A stretch of 64,000 bases of DNA from Geodermatophilus telluris (GTDB lineage: Bacteria; Actinomycetota; Actinomycetes; Mycobacteriales; Geodermatophilaceae), in contig NZ_FMZF01000002.1 of assembly GCF_900102745.1 (NCBI RefSeq), positions 124,001-188,000 of the forward strand. The letters run 5' to 3'. Below the pieces are notes generated by a model. It was not told the origin of the DNA and ran no database searches. It saw only the letters and a program-made list of their open reading frames with translations. A program made the translations under genes and the position numbers. Within the stretch, counting starts at the first letter, position 1, and each line of letters begins with the position of its first letter. This document shows, piece by piece, positions 1,216 to 56,785 of this stretch.

Positions 1216-1902
1216 TCAGGAAGCGCGCAGCGCGCCCGTGCGGGCCGCCTCGGCCACGTGCGCGGTCACGTCGGTCTCGTAGCGGCGCAGCAGCCGCTCG
1301 GCCAGCTCCCGCGTCGCGGCCGCGTGCGCCGGCACGTCCTCCGGTGCCGGGAGGGGGTGGCGCGGCTCGGTCACCAGCACCCGGGTGGTCGCCAGCCAGG
1401 TGGCCGCGACCAGGCCGGCGGTCGCCCGTGGGTCCGCCGGGGCGGGCTGCTCGGCGTCGGGACCGGTCCAGGCCGCCAGCAGGGCGGCGCGCAGCCGCCC
1501 CTCGGCCTCGAAGTGCAGCTCCCGCTCGGCGGCCTGCAGCGCCGGGGAGCCGGCCAGGGTGGTGACCATCCGCCGGCCCTCGACGGTGCCCAGCGACGTC
1601 ACGTAGTCGGCCACGGCGGTGACCAGGTGCTGGCGGAGCGCGGTCAGCGCGGGCATGCCGGGCCGGCGCTCCCGGACGGCGACCGAGGGCGCGTCCACCC
1701 ACGGCGTCCGGTCGGACCAGTAGAGCTCGTCCTTGGTGGCGAAGTGGTTGAACACCGTCTGCACGGCGACGTCGGCCGCGGCGGCGACGTCGGCGATGGT
1801 CACGGTGTCGAACCCCCGCTCGGCGAAGAGCCGCTGGGCCGTCTCACGGACGTGCGCGCGGGTGAGCGCCTTCTTCTGCGCGCGACGGGACTGCTCACTC
1901 AC
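1216..1902 (-). CDS. TetR/AcrR family transcriptional regulator
   Basis: A 228-residue regulator with start GTG at 1902, chosen because the conserved helix-turn-helix (TRAHVRETAQRLFAERGFDTVT, then IADVAAAADVAVQTVFNHFATKDEL) begins about 15 residues in and a -10-like box TAGCGT lies 7 nt upstream, the leaderless arrangement common in actinobacteria. The recognition helix VQTVFNHF is typical of TetR proteins. The C-terminal ligand domain is Ala-rich and not diagnostic. It converges on the upstream TetR gene and is divergent from the oxidoreductase gene at 2150, which it could control. Confidence 0.88.
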   Translation of the reverse strand: MSEQSRRAQKKALTRAHVRETAQRLFAERGFDTVTIADVAAAADVAVQTVFNHFATKDELYWSDRTPWVDAPSVAVRERRPGMPALTALRQHLVTAVADYVTSLGTVEGRRMVTTLAGSPALQAAERELHFEAEGRLRAALLAAWTGPDAEQPAPADPRATAGLVAATWLATTRVLVTEPRHPLPAPEDVPAHAAATRELAERLLRRYETDVTAHVAEAARTGALRAS

Positions 1903-1909
1903 GGTAGAA

Positions 1910-1915
1910 ACGCTA
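1910..1915 (-). promoter_or_regulatory. -10 box of a leaderless promoter for the minus-strand TetR
   Basis: TAGCGT read on the minus strand, 7 nt before the GTG start at 1902. This spacing implies that transcription starts at or next to the initiation codon. No convincing -35 was seen. Confidence 0.4.
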
Positions 1916-2149
1916 ACAACTCTCTGTGCTCGATCGTACGGGTGCGGGACGAGATCGACCGGTCGGGTGGGGTCCCGGTCCTCGGCTCCGGCGCCGTCCC
2001 CGGGCCCGGCCGGTACCGGCGGGCCGCCGACGGCGTCGTCGCGGGGCACCCGTCGATGGTGCCGCACGCCGCCCGCGTGCGGGCTGCCCGGCCCGGCTCC
2101 GGGGGTTGAACGGCGGTTGCCCGGCGCCCGGGCTGGGCAGCTGTCCGCC

Positions 2150-3106
2150 ATGAGCCTGCGGGTGGGTCTGGTCGGGGCCGGCGGTGTGGGTGCCCGCCAC
2201 GGGCACACGCTGCGCCGTCTGGACGGCGTCGAGCTGGTGGGCGTCACCGACGCCGTCCCAGCCGCGGCCGCGGCGCTGGCCGGCGAGCTCGGCGTCCCGG
2301 CGGTCGACGACGTCGGGCGACTGCTCGGGTCGGGGCTGGACGCCGTCTGGCTGTGCGTGCCGCCGTTCGCCCACGGGGAGCTCGAGCTCGCGGTGGTGCG
2401 CGCCGGCCTGCCGCTGTTCGTGGAGAAGCCGCTGGGCGCGGGGCTGGCCGTGGCCGAGGAGGTCGCCGCTGCCGTCACCGCGGCCGGGGTGCCGACGGCG
2501 ACCGGCTACCACTGGCGCCACCTCGACACCGTCGCCCGGGCCCGGGCGGTGTGCGCGGCCGCCCCGCCGCGGGTGGTGGCGGCGACCTGGCTGGACAGGG
2601 TCCCCCCGCCGGCGTGGTGGGCGGATGCCGGGCGCTCGGGCGGGCAGGTGGTCGAGCAGGCCACGCACGTGCTCGACCTCGCCCGCTGGCTCGCCGGGGA
2701 GGTGGCCGAGGTGCAGGCGGTCGTCGCGCCGTCGTCGGCGTCCGGGCGGTCCGTCGACGACGCGACCGCGGCGCTGCTGCGCTTCGAGTCCGGTGCGGTC
2801 GGCACGCTGACCGCGGCGTGCGTGCAGCCGGTGAAGACGCGGGCCGGCATCGAGCTGTCCTGCGCCGGCGCCGCGGTGGAGCTGACCGAGACCTCGCTGG
2901 TGGTGACCACGCCCGACGGCAGCCAGCGCGTGGAGCCCGCGGTGGACGCGCGCACCGCCGTCGACCGGGCCTTCGTCGACCTGCTGGTGACCGGGACGAG
3001 GGCCGAGGGGCTGGTCGACCACGCCGAGGCGCTGCGCACCCACCGGCTCGCCGTCGCCGTCGCCGAGTCGGCCCGCACCGGCGCCCCCGTCCGGGTGGGT
3101 CGGTAG
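2150..3106 (+). CDS. Gfo/Idh/MocA family NAD(P)-dependent oxidoreductase
   Basis: The 318-residue protein starts at ATG 2150, right where the Rossmann fold begins (RVGLVGAGGVGARHGHTL, a GxGxxG dinucleotide site at residues 8-13). Residues about 65-100 hold WLCVPPFAH and the conserved EKPLG motif whose Lys is catalytic in this family; GQVVEQATHVLDLARWL near residue 165-180 is the usual second-domain His motif. Members oxidise or reduce sugar, inositol or bilin derivatives; the substrate cannot be told. It ends in TAG (3104-3106), showing that TAG still works as a stop here. Confidence 0.85.
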   Translation: MSLRVGLVGAGGVGARHGHTLRRLDGVELVGVTDAVPAAAAALAGELGVPAVDDVGRLLGSGLDAVWLCVPPFAHGELELAVVRAGLPLFVEKPLGAGLAVAEEVAAAVTAAGVPTATGYHWRHLDTVARARAVCAAAPPRVVAATWLDRVPPPAWWADAGRSGGQVVEQATHVLDLARWLAGEVAEVQAVVAPSSASGRSVDDATAALLRFESGAVGTLTAACVQPVKTRAGIELSCAGAAVELTETSLVVTTPDGSQRVEPAVDARTAVDRAFVDLLVTGTRAEGLVDHAEALRTHRLAVAVAESARTGAPVRVGR

Positions 3107-9936: not shown

Positions 9937-12900
9937 GTGAAGACCTGGCTCGACGCCTGGCCGGTGTTCCGGCAGCTGACCGGCCCCGACCCCCTCGGCC
10001 GCGGCGCCGCCGCGCGCAGCAAGGACACGGAGAACGTGGTGAGCCGCACGGCCACCGCCGACCGCGTCGTGCAGAGCGTCTGCCCCTACTGCGCGGTGGG
10101 GTGCGGGCAGCGGATCTTCGTCGAGGACGAGCGGATCGTCCAGATCGAGGGCGACCCCGACTCGCCGATCAGCCGCGGCCGGCTCTGCCCCAAGGGCAGC
10201 GCGAGCAAGTCCCTGGTGACCAGCCCGACGCGGGTGACCAAGGTCCGCTACCGCCGGCCGTACGGCACCGAGTGGGAGGACCTCGACCTCGACACGGCGA
10301 TGGAGATGATCGCCGACCGCGTCCTGGAGGCCCGGCGCAAGGGCTGGCAGGACGAGAACGACGGCAAGCGCGTGAACCGCACCGTGGGGTTGGCGAGCCT
10401 CGGAGGGGCGACCCTCGACAACGAGGAGAACTACCTCATGAAGAAGCTCTACAGCGCCCTGGGCGCGATCCAGATCGAGAACCAGGCGCGCATATAGCAC
10501 TCCGCCACGGTGCCCGGTCTGGGTGCCTCGTTCGGTCGTGGCGGCGCCACGAACTCCCAGGAAGACCTCGCGAACTCCGACTGCATCGTCATCGAGGGTT
10601 CCAACATGGCCGAGTGCCACCCGGTGGGTTTCCAGTGGGTGGCGGAGGCCAAGGCGCGCGGCGCGAAGGTCGTCCACGTCGACCCGCGGTTCACCCGGAC
10701 CAGCGCGATCGCCGACCTGCACCTGCCGCTGCGCATCGGCACCGACATCGCCTTCCTCGGCGGGCTGATCAACTTCGTCCTCGAGAACGACCTGTACTTC
10801 AAGGAGTACGTGGTCGCCTACACCAACGCCGCGGCGCTGGTGAGCGAGGACTTCGTCGACGCCGAGGACCTCGGCGGCCTGTTCTCCGGCTTCGACCCCG
10901 AGCACAACACCTACGACGAGTCCAGCTGGCAGTACGAGTTCGAGGAGCCGCCACACTCGGGCTCCGACGACCCGGCCGGCGCCGCCGCGCAGGACGAGCT
11001 CGAGGACCACCCGGAGATCCGCAAGACCGACAAGGCGCAGGCGGCCGGCAGCGGCGGCCCGCCGATCGCGGCCAAGCCGAAGCGCGACGAGACGCTGCAG
11101 CACCCGCGGACGGTCTTCCAGATCCTGAAGCGGCACTTCGCCCGCTACACCCCGGAGACGGTCGCCGAGGTCTGCGGCGTCGAGCCGGCGGCGTTCCTGC
11201 AGGTGGCCCGCTGGGTCACCGAGAACAGCGGCCGGGACCGGACGACGGCGTGGGTGTACTCGGTGGGCTGGACGCAGCACAGCGTCGGCGCGCAGTACAT
11301 CCGCACCTGCTCGATCCTGCAGACGCTGCTGGGCAACATCGGCCGTCCCGGCGGCGGGATCCTGGCGCTGCGCGGGCACGCCAGCATCCAGGGCTCGACC
11401 GACGTCCCCACGCTGTACAACCTGCTGCCCGGCTACCTGCCGATGCCGCACGCGATGCAGCACGGGTCGCTCGACGAGTACTGCGCCGACGCGGCCGGCA
11501 AGGCCGGCTTCTGGGGCAACAAGCGGGCCTACGCGGTCAGCCTGCTCAAGGCCTGGTGGGGCGACGCCGCGACGCCGGAGAACGACTTCTGCTTCGACCA
11601 CCTGCCCAGGATCGACGGGGACCACAGCTCCTACCGCACGATCAAGGACATGATCGAGGGGAAGGTCTCCGGCTACTTCCTGGTCGGTGAGAACCCGACG
11701 GTCGGGCACCCCAACGGCCGGATGAACCGCTTCGGGCTGGCCAACCTCGACTGGCTCGTCGTCCGCGACCTGCAGCTGATCGAGTCGGCGACCTTCTGGC
11801 AGGAGTCCCCGGAGATCGAGACCGGGGAGCTCGCGCCCGAGACGATCGCCACCGAGGTCTTCTTCCTGCCGGCGGCGTCGCACGCGGAGAAGGAGGGCAC
11901 CTTCACCCAGACCCAGCGGCTGCTGCAGTGGCGGCACAAGGCCGTCGAGCCGCCGGGCGACGCGAAGAGCGACCTGTGGTTCTACTTCCACCTCGGCCGC
12001 ATCCTGCGCGAGCGGCTGAAGGACTCGACCGACCCGCGCGACCGGCCGCTGCTCGACCTCACCTGGGACTACCCGACGCACGGCCCCGACGCCGAGCCCA
12101 GCGCCGAGGACGTGCTGCGGGAGATCAACGGCGTCGGCCCCGACGGGCGCGCCGTGTCCGGGTACCTGGAGCTCAAGGACGACGGGTCGACGTCGTGCGG
12201 CTGCTGGATCTACTCCGGCGTCTACGCCGACGAGGTCAACCAGTCCGCGCGCCGCAAGCCCGGCCGTGAGCAGGGCCAGGTCGCCTCCGAGTGGGGCTGG
12301 GCCTGGCCGTACAACCGGCGCGTCCTCTACAACCGCGCCTCGGCCGACCCCGAGGGCAGGCCGTGGAGCGAGCGCAAGAAGTACGTGTGGTGGGACGAGG
12401 AGGCCGGCCGCTGGACCGGCGTCGACAACCCGGACTTCGAGGCGACCAAGCGGCCGGACTACGTGCCGCCGGAGGGGGCCCGGGCGCAGGACGCGATCGG
12501 CGGCGCCGACCCCTTCATCATGCAGGGGGACGGGAAGGCCTGGCTGTACGCGCCCGCGGGCGTCGTCGACGGGCCGCTGCCGACGCACTACGAGCCGGCG
12601 GAGTCCGTCGTCGAGAACGCGCTGTACAAGCAGCAGGCGAACCCGACGATCGAGCACATCGAGGGCCCGTGGAACCGGGAGAACCCCTCGCTGAGCCCGG
12701 TCTTCCCGTTCCAGGTGACCACCTACCGGCTCACCGAGCACCACACGGCCGGCGGGATGAGCCGCACGCTGCCCTACCTCTCGGAGCTCCAGCCGGAGTT
12801 CTTCGTGGAGGTCAGCCCGGAGCTCGCCGCGCTGCGGGGACTGGTCAACGGGGAGTACGCCACCCTGGTCAGCACGCGGACGGCGATCGAGGCCAAGGTG

Positions 12901-13227
12901 CTGGTCACCGAGCGGGTGCGGCCGATCCGGCTGCGCACCGGCCAGGTCGTGCACCAGATCGGGATGCCCTACCACTGGTCCTACAGCGGCATCTCCACCG
13001 GAGACTCGGCCAACGACCTGCTCGGGATCGTGCTCGACCCGAACACGCACATCCAGGAGGACAAGGTCAGCACCGCCGACATCGTCCCGGGACGGCGCCC
13101 GCGCGGTCCCGCGCTGATCGACTTCGTGGAGGGCTACCGGCGCCGCGCCGGGGTGGAGTCCGGCCGGGTGGGCGTCAACGGGCGCGACCCGGTGGCCGCC
13201 GAGGCCGGCGAGGGGTCGCAGCTGTGA
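9937..13227 (+). CDS. formate dehydrogenase alpha subunit, selenocysteine encoded by UAG
   Basis: The gene reads through an in-frame TAG at 10495-10497 to give 1096 residues with Sec at 187; without readthrough it breaks into two ORFs. It oxidises formate to CO2 using a molybdenum or tungsten bis-pterin guanine dinucleotide cofactor. Start GTG 9937 gives the KTWLDAWPVFRQLTGPDPLGRG N-terminus I recall for actinobacterial homologues. C49, C52, C56 and C84 bind a 4Fe-4S cluster, K86 follows, and the active site reads NQARI-Sec-HSATVPGLG, with the His that pairs with Sec. The molybdopterin domains continue to a C-terminal aspartate-decarboxylase-like domain (GEYATLVSTRTAIEAKVL). A SECIS-like hairpin follows the TAG. 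It is first in an operon with the beta and membrane subunits. Confidence 0.95.
10495..10497 (+). other. UAG codon read as selenocysteine
   Basis: In-frame TAG between NQARI and HSATV of the formate dehydrogenase alpha subunit, exactly where other family members have Sec (usually TGA) or Cys (TGC/TGT). Frame and similarity continue on both sides with no indel. TAG is still a terminator elsewhere in the window (3104-3106, 15361-15363, 15671-15673, 56783-56785), so recoding must be context dependent. Confidence 0.93.
10502..10544 (+). promoter_or_regulatory. SECIS-like hairpin directing Sec insertion at UAG
   Basis: Outer stem 10502-10509 pairs perfectly over 8 bp with 10537-10544. An inner helix (10513-10515 with 10521-10523, extendable by wobble pairs) exposes the pentaloop GGUCU at 10516-10520. 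As I recall the E. coli fdhF element, it also has a GGUCU loop beginning 18 nt after the Sec codon; here the same 18-nt gap separates TAG from GGUCU. This is the site a SelB-type elongation factor would bind. Confidence 0.85.
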
Positions 13228-13249: not shown

Positions 13250-14314
13250 ATGACCACGATCAGCTCGGCGAGCGCGGCCTTCACCGGCAACGACCCCGAG
13301 AACCGGCTGTTCGGGCCGGTGCCGGACGTGACCGGCCAGTCCGGCTACGACGGCGACCACCCGGCGCGGGTGGGCTTCTTCACCGACACCTCGGTGTGCA
13401 TCGGCTGCAAGGCCTGCGAGGTGGCGTGCAAGGAGTGGAACACCCTGCCGATGGACGACGCGAACGGCGTGCGCGACGTCATCGGGCTGTCCGGGATGTC
13501 CTACGACAACACCGGCCAGCTCGGGGCCAACTCGTGGCGGCACGTGGCGTTCATCGAGCAGGCGCGCACCGTCGACCTGCCGATGCCGACGTTCGGGCGC
13601 CCGGGGGACGACCGGCACGACGGCGGCCCGTCGGTCCCCGAGGGTGAGAACGACGAGAGCCTGGCGCGGGCGCAGCAGTCGAGCGTGCTCAACGCCGAGG
13701 CGCTGAGCGAGTTCGACCCGCAGACCGGCCAGACCGGCACCGACAAGCAGATCCGGTGGCTGATGAGCTCCGACGTCTGCAAGCACTGCACGCACGCCGG
13801 CTGCCTGGACGTCTGCCCCACCGGCGCGCTGTTCCGCACCGAGTTCGGCACCGTCGTCGTGCAGGGCGACATCTGCAACGGCTGTGGCTACTGCGTGCCC
13901 TCGTGTCCCTACGGCGTCATCGACCAGCGCAAGGACGACGGCCGGGTCTTCAAGTGCACGATGTGCTACGACCGGCTCACCGACGGGCTGCAGCCGGCCT
14001 GCGCCACCGCGTGCCCGACCCAGTCGATCCAGTTCGGCAACCTCGACGAGCTGCAGGCCCGCGCCGACGCGCGGCTGGCCACGCTGAAGTCGCAGGGCGT
14101 GGAGACGGCGCGGCTCTACGGCCGGGACGAGGACGACGGCGTCGGCGGCGCGGGGGCGTTCTTCCTGCTGCTCGACGAGCCGGAGGTCTACGGCCTGCCG
14201 CCGGACCCGGTGGTCACCACCCGCGACCTGCCCTCGATGTGGCGGGCGGCGGCGGCCGGCGCCGCGATGATCGCCGGTGTCGTGATCTCGTCGTTCGTGG
14301 GGCGGCGGCCGTGA
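13250..14314 (+). CDS. formate dehydrogenase beta subunit, four-cluster ferredoxin-type protein
   Basis: A 354-residue electron-transfer subunit with a strong ribosome site (AGGGAGGAGG) before ATG 13250. Four Cys groups are visible: CIGCKACEVAC (C50, C53, C56, C60), CKHCTHAGCLDVC (from C177), CNGCGYCVPSC and CTMCYDRLTDGLQPACATAC. They bind [4Fe-4S] clusters that carry electrons from the Sec/Mo site to the membrane partner. A hydrophobic C-terminal stretch (AAAGAAMIAGVVISSFV) probably anchors it. It follows the alpha gene by 22 nt and overlaps the next gene as GTGA. Confidence 0.93.
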   Translation: MTTISSASAAFTGNDPENRLFGPVPDVTGQSGYDGDHPARVGFFTDTSVCIGCKACEVACKEWNTLPMDDANGVRDVIGLSGMSYDNTGQLGANSWRHVAFIEQARTVDLPMPTFGRPGDDRHDGGPSVPEGENDESLARAQQSSVLNAEALSEFDPQTGQTGTDKQIRWLMSSDVCKHCTHAGCLDVCPTGALFRTEFGTVVVQGDICNGCGYCVPSCPYGVIDQRKDDGRVFKCTMCYDRLTDGLQPACATACPTQSIQFGNLDELQARADARLATLKSQGVETARLYGRDEDDGVGGAGAFFLLLDEPEVYGLPPDPVVTTRDLPSMWRAAAAGAAMIAGVVISSFVGRRP

Positions 14315-54333: not shown

Positions 54334-55517
54334 CCGAGCCGGTCCTGGTCCTCGACCGGGTGGGGAAGCGCTTCCGGCGTGGCCGAGCCCGCTCACTGCG
54401 TGAGCGCTTCACCCGCCCCACCGCCGCACCCCGCTGGGTCCAGGTGCTCGACGACGTGAGCCTGAGTGTCCGGCCGGGCCAGGTGGTCGGAGTCGTGGGG
54501 CGCAACGGCGGCGGCAAGTCGACCTTGCTGCGCATCGCCAGTGGGCTCACCACACCCACCAGCGGCACGGTCCGCAGGCGCGCGGCGGTCTCCGGCCTGC
54601 TCACCCTCAATGCCTCTGCGAGCGGCGAGCTGTCCGGGGCGGACAACGCCGTCACGGCGGCTGTCCTCGCCGGCCTGAGCCCCGCCGAGGCCCGGCGGCG
54701 GCTGCCCGACATCCGGGACTTCGCCGAACTGAACGACGCAACGCTCCACGAGCCGTTGCGGACCTACAGCGACGGGATGAAGCTCCGCCTCGCCTTCGCC
54801 GCGGTGGCCGTCACCCGGCCGGACCTGCTCCTGATCGACGAGGTCATCGCAGTCGGGGACCTGTCCTTCCAGGAGAAGTGCCTGACCCACGTCGAGGGCC
54901 TGCGCGACCGTGGCTCCGCGGTCCTCGTCGTGTCGCACGTCATGAGCCAGTTGCGGCGGTTGGCCACGGACGCCGTGTGGCTGCGCTCCGGCCGCGTCCA
55001 CGCGCGCGGGACCGCGGCCGAGGTGATGGACGCCTACGAACGGTCCATGGACGAGCGCGCAGGACCTCCCGTCCCCCTCGCGTCCGGTGGCTACCGGAAG
55101 GGGACGGGTCAGGTCCTCATCACGTCGATCACCTGCACGGGCACCCAGGACACAGGACCCGGGACCACCGCCCTGGGAGGCGGGCTGTCCGTGGCAGTCG
55201 AGTACCGGCGTCAGGTGCCGGCGGACTCGGCTCACTTCGGGGTCTCCCTGCGGCGGGCGGGCACGGACACCGCTCTCCTGGACCTGACGACGGACGGGAG
55301 TGGCGCCGGCGCTGTCCCGCTCCACGATGACGGTCGGGTGGTCCTGACGGTGGACCGGCTGGACCTCGAGCCCGGCACCTACTGGGTCGACGCGGGGATC
55401 TACGCCACCGACTGGGAGGTGCCCTTCGACTACTGCTGGGACGCGACCCAGGTCCGCGTCCTGGGGGTCCCGTCCCACGGGCCGGTACAACCGCCGCACC
55501 GGTGGGCCGTCGGGTGA
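54330..55517 (+). CDS. ABC transporter ATPase with C-terminal carbohydrate-binding domain (Wzt-like)
   Basis: A 395-residue protein, GTG 54330. Residues 1-245 are the ATPase: Walker A GRNGGGKST (57-65), signature region TYSDGMKLRLAF, Walker B LLLIDEVIAVGD and the H-loop VVSHV. Residues about 260-395 are a beta-sandwich (VLITSITCTGTQDTGPG ... LDLEPGTYWVDAGIYA), as in Wzt proteins that read the non-reducing end of the O-polysaccharide before export. Works with the permease upstream. Confidence 0.93.
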   Translation: MTEPVLVLDRVGKRFRRGRARSLRERFTRPTAAPRWVQVLDDVSLSVRPGQVVGVVGRNGGGKSTLLRIASGLTTPTSGTVRRRAAVSGLLTLNASASGELSGADNAVTAAVLAGLSPAEARRRLPDIRDFAELNDATLHEPLRTYSDGMKLRLAFAAVAVTRPDLLLIDEVIAVGDLSFQEKCLTHVEGLRDRGSAVLVVSHVMSQLRRLATDAVWLRSGRVHARGTAAEVMDAYERSMDERAGPPVPLASGGYRKGTGQVLITSITCTGTQDTGPGTTALGGGLSVAVEYRRQVPADSAHFGVSLRRAGTDTALLDLTTDGSGAGAVPLHDDGRVVLTVDRLDLEPGTYWVDAGIYATDWEVPFDYCWDATQVRVLGVPSHGPVQPPHRWAVG

Positions 55518-55579
55518 ACGGTGCCGTCGGACCACGCCGAGCGAGGTCACCCCGGGAGCCGTCGTCGGAGGAGACTACG

Positions 55580-56785
55580 GTGACGACGGGGGAGCCCGAG
55601 ACGCCTCAATCGCGAGACGCCACGGAACCCTATGCGCGGGTCCTCCACATCGACGTGGACACCCCGGACTGGTCCCTGGTGGCGAGCCGGCGTCGCTCGA
55701 GGACGTTCTTCGTCCTCTGGCGCGCGGAATGCGCGGTGGGGCACGTCTGGGTCGACGAACGCGACGACCCGACACCGGCCGTGCAGCGGGCCCTGGTCAC
55801 GGCGCCTCGGGCCCCCGCCGTCGCAGGTCCCGTCACGCCGCCGAGCACGGTCAGCGTCGTCATCTGCACCCGTGACCGGCCGGGTGCGCTGGTGCGCTGT
55901 CTGGCGAGCTTCGGTAACCAGAGCCGCCGTCCCGACGAGGTCATCGTGGTGGACAACGCATCGCGCGCCGCAGCGGAGACACAGGCCGCGACGCTGGCCG
56001 CAGGTGCCACCTACATCCGGGAAGACAGACCCGGACTCGACATCGCCCGCAACACGGGCATGCTGGCGGCGAGATCACAGGTCGTCGCATACACGGACGA
56101 CGACACGGAGTTGCACCCCCGATGGCTCGAGTGCCTCGTCGGCGCGTTCTCGGAGGACCACGTCGTCGCCGTGACGGGTCTGGTCCTCCCCGCGGAGCTC
56201 GACACGGAACCACAGTGGCTCTTCGAGCGGGACTGGGGGTTCGGCAAGGGGTACCTCACCCGAGACTTCGACGAGGTGTTCTACGAGGACACCCGGACGA
56301 GGGGCTGCCCCGCGTGGGAGGTGGGCGCAGGCGCGAACATGGCGTTCCGTGCGTCTGTCGTCGACAGGGTCGGGCTCTTCGACGAGCGGCTCGACGTCGG
56401 GGCGGCCGGGTGCTCCGGCGACTCGGAGTACTGGTACAGGATCCTCGCGGACGGCGGCACCTGCCGGTACGAGCCGTCGGCGATCGTCTACCACCACCAC
56501 CGACGGGATCTCGAGGGGCTGGCCCGTCAGCTGCGGTACTACATGCGCGGCCACGCGGCCGCCCTCCTGGTGCAGTACGAGCGGACCGGCGATCGGGGCA
56601 ACCTCCGGCGCCTGGTCCTGAGCCTCCCCGCCTGGTACCTGCGCCTGGTCGCCCATCGCATCTGCGGGCGCACGGACGCACCCACGACCGCCCTGCTCCC
56701 GCAGGTCCTCGGACTCCTCTCCGGCGTCGCCTTCTACCTGCGTCGTTCACCCCTCGTCCCCCGGGTTCTCCGACATGGCGGGTAG
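55580..56785 (+). CDS. GT2 glycosyltransferase
   Basis: A 401-residue protein. GTG 55580 is chosen because GGAGGAG sits 6 nt upstream; GTG 55514 (GTGA overlap with the ATPase gene) is the alternative. Motifs: STVSVVICTRDRPGALVRCLASF, VIVVDNASRAAAE, AYTDDDTELHPRWLE, AGANMAFRASVVDRVGLFDERLDVG and CSGDSEYWYRIL. Its domain layout is close to domain 1 of the tandem enzyme at 50849, so the two probably arose by duplication. It ends in TAG. Confidence 0.9.
   Translation: MTTGEPETPQSRDATEPYARVLHIDVDTPDWSLVASRRRSRTFFVLWRAECAVGHVWVDERDDPTPAVQRALVTAPRAPAVAGPVTPPSTVSVVICTRDRPGALVRCLASFGNQSRRPDEVIVVDNASRAAAETQAATLAAGATYIREDRPGLDIARNTGMLAARSQVVAYTDDDTELHPRWLECLVGAFSEDHVVAVTGLVLPAELDTEPQWLFERDWGFGKGYLTRDFDEVFYEDTRTRGCPAWEVGAGANMAFRASVVDRVGLFDERLDVGAAGCSGDSEYWYRILADGGTCRYEPSAIVYHHHRRDLEGLARQLRYYMRGHAAALLVQYERTGDRGNLRRLVLSLPAWYLRLVAHRICGRTDAPTTALLPQVLGLLSGVAFYLRRSPLVPRVLRHGG

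Follow-up and report, generated by a model that had tools for sequence, protein, structure and literature searches.

The pyrrolysine system uses the stop codon UAG together with a tRNA-Pyl that carries a CUA anticodon. UAG is reportedly also read as selenocysteine (Sec) in Geodermatophilaceae, a finding that is ascribed to Mukai et al. 2016. The statement in an earlier note on this DNA that UAG-selenocysteine is already known from the family agrees with the accessible part of PMC5330540, which describes a tRNA-Sec with a CUA anticodon in three Geodermatophilaceae genomes and UAG in formate dehydrogenase (FDH), UGSC proteins and AhpC of Blastococcus saxobsidens, citing Mukai et al. 2016. UAG-selenocysteine is also mentioned in the accessible parts of PMC5133445 and PMC10778597, and those of PMC8318568, PMC7609411, PMC5756416 and the 2026 review PMC13188914 contain no mention of it for Geodermatophilaceae. 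The third system for comparison is the UGA-selenocysteine FDH of other families of the order, in which TGA follows ATT and the tRNA-Sec has the anticodon UCA, whereas the locus described here, from Geodermatophilus telluris, combines TAG after ATA with CUA. It shares with the system in the accessible part of PMC5330540 the CUA tRNA-Sec, the UAG site in FDH, the link to UGSC and the family itself, and it differs in nothing essential from the UAG-selenocysteine ascribed to Mukai et al. 2016. Its FDH is another instance of this published code variant.

The window, i.e. the whole stretch of 64,000 nucleotides that was analysed and lies at C3:124001–188000 of the genome, contains on its forward strand a gene for an FDH alpha subunit (9937–13227), for which the GTG at 9937 was chosen as start by us. 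The in-frame TAG at 10495–10497 (forward strand), which sequence comparison with the family and the order predicts to be a selenocysteine codon, lies at the active-site position between codons for NQARI and HSATV. The claim of the earlier note that the frame of 1096 codons is otherwise intact agrees with both the sequence and the profile match. With TAG counted as one residue, the reading frame runs without a stop from 9940 up to the TGA at 13225–13227 and, from the GTG at 9937, encodes 1096 residues, with Sec as residue 187 (186 if counted one codon later), and the NCBIfam formate dehydrogenase model NF041513 matches across the TAG with 1910.3 bits (cut-off 1400), covering model positions 2–1067 of 1067. 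The following gene (13250–14314, forward strand) encodes an iron-sulfur subunit, probably FDH beta; it contains Pfam 4Fe-4S domains, and its best NCBIfam match is the FDH-beta model TIGR01582 with 180.5 bits, below the cut-off of 334.7.

If the TAG were an ordinary stop, the gene would be a pseudogene, contain a sequencing error, or encode two polypeptides with a restart at the GTG at 10510, and a GTG-started frame of 905 amino acids does begin there, 12 nt past the TAG. This is nevertheless very improbable, given the unbroken profile match, the presence of a CUA tRNA-Sec and sel genes, and the recurrence of TAG at the same site throughout the family. The comparison of homologues at this codon, which the earlier note had proposed, finds the FDH site pattern in 98 of 112 Geodermatophilaceae genomes, 118 times in all and always as ATA-TAG-CAC. 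Outside the family but within the order, the site reads ATT-TGA-CAC in 61 of the 64 matches listed and has a Cys codon (GTC-TGC or GTC-TGT) in the other three. Eleven of the 14 family genomes without the pattern have no FDH match at 1e-60; the match in G034 is confined to the region downstream of the Sec site, and that in G096 to the first 124 residues. G079 has two FDH copies (L155 and L157), neither with a recognisable Sec codon or SECIS element at the place where their frames change, and each with one further in-frame stop, which is attributable to decay or an assembly fault. Together with the comparison across the order, the sequence makes it very likely that UAG at the FDH active site is read as selenocysteine.

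The G. telluris genome contains a tRNA-Sec gene with the anticodon CUA (CTA) on the minus strand of contig C7 (386771–386862). It scores 65.3 bits, and a search of the whole genome found no other tRNA-Sec above the Rfam cut-off of 47, a threshold that tRNA-Ser can narrowly exceed (47.7 and 48.4 bits). The tRNA gene is followed by selA and then selB, with selD on the other side and on the opposite strand; their scores against TIGR00474, TIGR00475 and TIGR00476 (418.5, 270.2 and 374.7 bits) are all above the NCBIfam cut-offs. The CUA tRNA-Sec, selA, selB and selD, for which the earlier note had suggested a search, are therefore all found, adjacent to one another. Neither of the situations that it regarded as contrary to its reading, a UCA tRNA-Sec only or a lack of any Sec machinery, exists in this genome, whose sole tRNA-Sec above the cut-off is the CUA one.

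ARAGORN labels the CUA tRNA-Sec as tRNA-Pyl (L001:1497–1592), which is a way in which an annotation pipeline could miss such a tRNA. Taken at face value, this name would favour pyrrolysine as the inserted residue; a related proposal is unspecific readthrough, in which near-cognate amino acids are inserted. Both are even less probable than an ordinary stop. UAG and CUA are indeed common to this locus and the pyrrolysine system, but the tRNA belongs to the Sec family by its Rfam score, has the sel genes as neighbours and closely resembles the UCA tRNA-Sec found in other genera of the family, and the FDH site of relatives outside the family carries TGA or a Cys codon among the matches listed. For selenocysteine, the preferred reading, SerRS and SelA would charge the CUA tRNA with Sec, and SelB would deliver the Sec-tRNA to UAG only where a hairpin keeps SelB beside the ribosome, while all other UAG codons would be read by RF1 as stop. 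As far as genome comparison can tell, it is very likely that the TAG at 10495–10497 is translated as selenocysteine by the CUA tRNA-Sec of this genome; UAG would be a stop elsewhere, and the clade would have switched from UGA to UAG.

Termination at UAG had been deduced in the earlier note from four other TAG-ending genes in the window. TAG-ending genes do exist there, but their number is less firm: a crude gene caller gives seven TAG-ending frames, and Pfam supports two of the five that were tested, a GFO/IDH/MocA gene (1733–3106) and a glycosyltransferase 2 gene (55502–56785). Because these two genes end in TAG, UAG seems to be still a stop elsewhere in the window. A second TAG selenoprotein was not found in the G. 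telluris genome, which gave no UGSC match, no AhpD-like match at 1e-20, and seven AhpC-TSA matches, all without in-frame stops.

Downstream of the TAG, pairing and covariation define a SECIS-like apical hairpin (10509–10527, forward strand), with a stem formed by 10509–10515 and 10521–10527 and the loop GGTCT at 10516–10520, which begins 18 nt after the TAG, just as the earlier note had it. Its alignment comprises 29 sequences, of which 27 are distinct; TAG is present in 20 and TGA in 9. They are the window, 19 of 30 FDH loci of the family after near-duplicates were dropped, and 9 of 10 loci from outside the family, the tenth being omitted for its Cys codon. Among the 27 distinct sequences, 97.4% of the cells of the inner 7-bp helix are paired, and one of its pairs occurs as GU, CG, GC, UG and UA, i.e. 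in five standard pair types. The 8-bp outer stem that the earlier note had described (10502–10509/10537–10544, spanning 10502–10544 on the forward strand) is present in the window but is broken in many relatives. In a version with seven pairs, 82.0% of its cells are paired in the same 27 sequences, and three of the seven counted pairs are unpaired in 14, 8 and 9 of them. The outer stem was therefore rejected as a conserved SECIS element, with pairs broken in up to 14 of 27 sequences, and the inner helix is conserved instead.

For the structure as a whole, none of 500 shuffles reached the covariation score, in a comparison in which related sequences can beat shuffles without any structure. Two further measures are no higher than in the shuffles: for pairs changed on both sides 499 of 500 shuffles score as high, and for further pair types 395 of 500. 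The covariation of the hairpin rests mainly on one pair. Folding of the region, also proposed in the earlier note, shows no unusual stability; the energy is ordinary for the composition (z = −0.88), 35 of 200 shuffles are at least equally stable, and energy alone is no evidence here. The SECIS core is common to the UAG-containing FDH and to the UGA-selenocysteine FDH of other families, which is the same protein with the same site. All nine aligned TGA sequences contain it, with the loop GGTCT in seven, AGTCT in one and AGTTT in one; GGTCT is missing from the loop position of L097, a relative in which the site is a Cys codon.

The codon directly 5' of the Sec codon is ATA (10492–10494, forward strand), which is rare for isoleucine in this DNA. 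Of the 43 Ile codons in the FDH gene of the window, 42 are ATC and only one is ATA, the one that precedes the TAG; in 49 crude gene calls for the window as a whole, without a filter for third-position GC, the counts are 353 ATC, 7 ATA and 5 ATT. The Ile codon before Sec in FDH is ATA at 118 of 118 TAG sites of the family and ATT at 61 of 61 TGA sites among the matches listed from outside it, counts that are not independent since the genomes are related; the third bases of the two codons preceding this Ile are variable. Another ATA occurs 34 codons upstream in 18 of 30 loci, which counts against a special role of the codon. A general rule of 'A before UAG' was rejected, the 22 UGSC genes that were read having GAT (13) or GAC (9) before TAG, and ATA was observed as a rule in FDH alone. 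Our guess from these sequences is that the P-site codon might tune how well Sec insertion competes with the release factor of the respective stop codon.

A tRNA-Sec was detected in 108 of 112 Geodermatophilaceae genomes. The anticodon arm with CUA is identical in 101 of the 112, from nine genera, and the remaining seven of the 108, from genera g5, g6 and g7, have the anticodon UCA; no intermediate anticodon (UUA or CCA) occurs in the family, as 101 CUA and 7 UCA genomes account for all 108. In other families of the order, UCA was found in 18 of 18 sampled genomes, which were chosen for matching the FDH pattern. One of these 18, a metagenome bin of another family (G230), has, besides UCA, a second tRNA-Sec with CUA of the Geodermatophilaceae type on another contig (L185). 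It was not counted as a dual code, the CUA copy probably being a Geodermatophilaceae contaminant. The UGSC family (NF041046) uses the same codon as FDH: of 95 matches, 72 contain a single in-frame TAG and 23 lack one, TGA or TAA is present in none, and TAG is the U of UGSC in the 22 genes that were read.

The UAG clade would have arisen from UGA by a two-base change in the anticodon of tRNA-Sec and a change of the Sec codons, and the distribution of anticodons is probably read most simply as a single switch. The UCA genera g5–g7 gave no FDH match at 1e-60 in nine genomes, and the FDH codon before the switch could therefore not be read inside the family. A SelA tree was built from 32 of 45 loci, leaving out 12 without a SelA match and one piece of less than 250 residues. 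Its 16 CUA rows, which represent five of the nine CUA genera, group in a single clade with a support of 100/100, and the UCA genera g6 and g7 fall outside it. Since the neighbour of this clade is a row from another family (G115; 91/84) and not g6 or g7, the SelA tree alone does not locate the switch within the family, and transfer may instead account for the sel genes.

Geodermatophilus marinus LHW52908 (G059) contains two tRNA-Sec genes, one with CUA on C11 and one with UCA on C17 (1173–1263; scaffold NZ_QVQH01000024.1, 69,133 bases). Its FDH and UGSC genes have TAG, and only one selB is above the cut-off. The segment with the UCA tRNA-Sec (L042:1–6000) has a GC content of 59–65%, compared to 74% for the contig, and is flanked by an ISAs1-like transposase piece at the contig start and by an IS110-like gene. 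It includes an AhpD-like gene (TIGR01926, above the cut-off) with a TGA at 1870–1872 in the motif CFY-TGA. At this Sec position, the 120 homologues listed of 231 have Cys (60), Trp (59) or Leu (1), and Trp would be explained by gene callers translating TGA with code 4.

The segment also carries a candidate for a new selenoprotein gene on the minus strand (5467–4493; L042:4493–5467), which reads EYVPMVGAWQY-TGA-MAVNR; its product is filed as 'hypothetical protein', starting from the Met after the TGA. The candidate protein has 260 relatives. Among the 120 of them that were listed, GGW is absent from the first 80 residues throughout, and 109 start at or beside the Met that follows the TGA. Six loci of this family come from named genomes (L148–L153), and the five that cover the site (L152 does not reach it) have the common motif EYxPxxGxWxY-TGA-M. 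Those from Pyrinomonadaceae, Acidobacteria, Bryobacterales and an Acidobacteriota bin read EYxPxAGGWxY-TGA-M, and all four genomes have a tRNA-Sec with UCA. The protein has no NCBIfam match, and the part after the TGA has no Pfam match. The EYxPxxGxWxYU-M proteins look like a new, undescribed selenoprotein family. The hairpins after the two G. marinus TGA codons are weak evidence, since their energies are ordinary (z = 0.22 and −0.50) and 66 of 500 shuffles attain the covariation of the second.

On balance, although with limited confidence, these features suggest that G. marinus LHW52908 writes Sec with two stop codons: UAG in its own FDH and UGSC genes, read by the CUA tRNA-Sec, and UGA in an acquired, low-GC, IS-flanked cassette that comprises the UCA tRNA-Sec, the AhpD-like CxxU protein and the protein of the new family, with one SelB for both. 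A mobile UGA cassette would thus have been laid over a UAG clade. The scaffold may instead be misassembled, with a misjoin at the insertion sequences, but the contig is free of runs of N, and close relatives of its IS21 transposase (13.6–14.8 kb) occur in G. marinus and in other members of the genus. In a comparison with plasmids, the segment matched only in transposase regions and one tRNA-sized piece among the 20 listed of 35 matching records. No report of a genome in which UAG and UGA both encode selenocysteine was recognised among the papers listed from an open-licence library, a scope that excludes the founding 2016 paper and supports no claim on all print.

The window gene alone changes little beyond annotation, in which the standard reading splits the FDH gene. 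What the present analysis adds is the census of 112 genomes, the ATA/ATT difference, the UCA genera inside the family and a congener in which both tRNAs occur. A single family, in which UCA genera are still present, allows the change from UGA to UAG to be sought, and the effect of stop-codon context becomes testable because the preceding codon, ATT or ATA, differs with the Sec codon. G. marinus, which seemingly uses both codes with a single SelB, would provide a natural test of whether the choice of the Sec codon is set by the tRNA alone.
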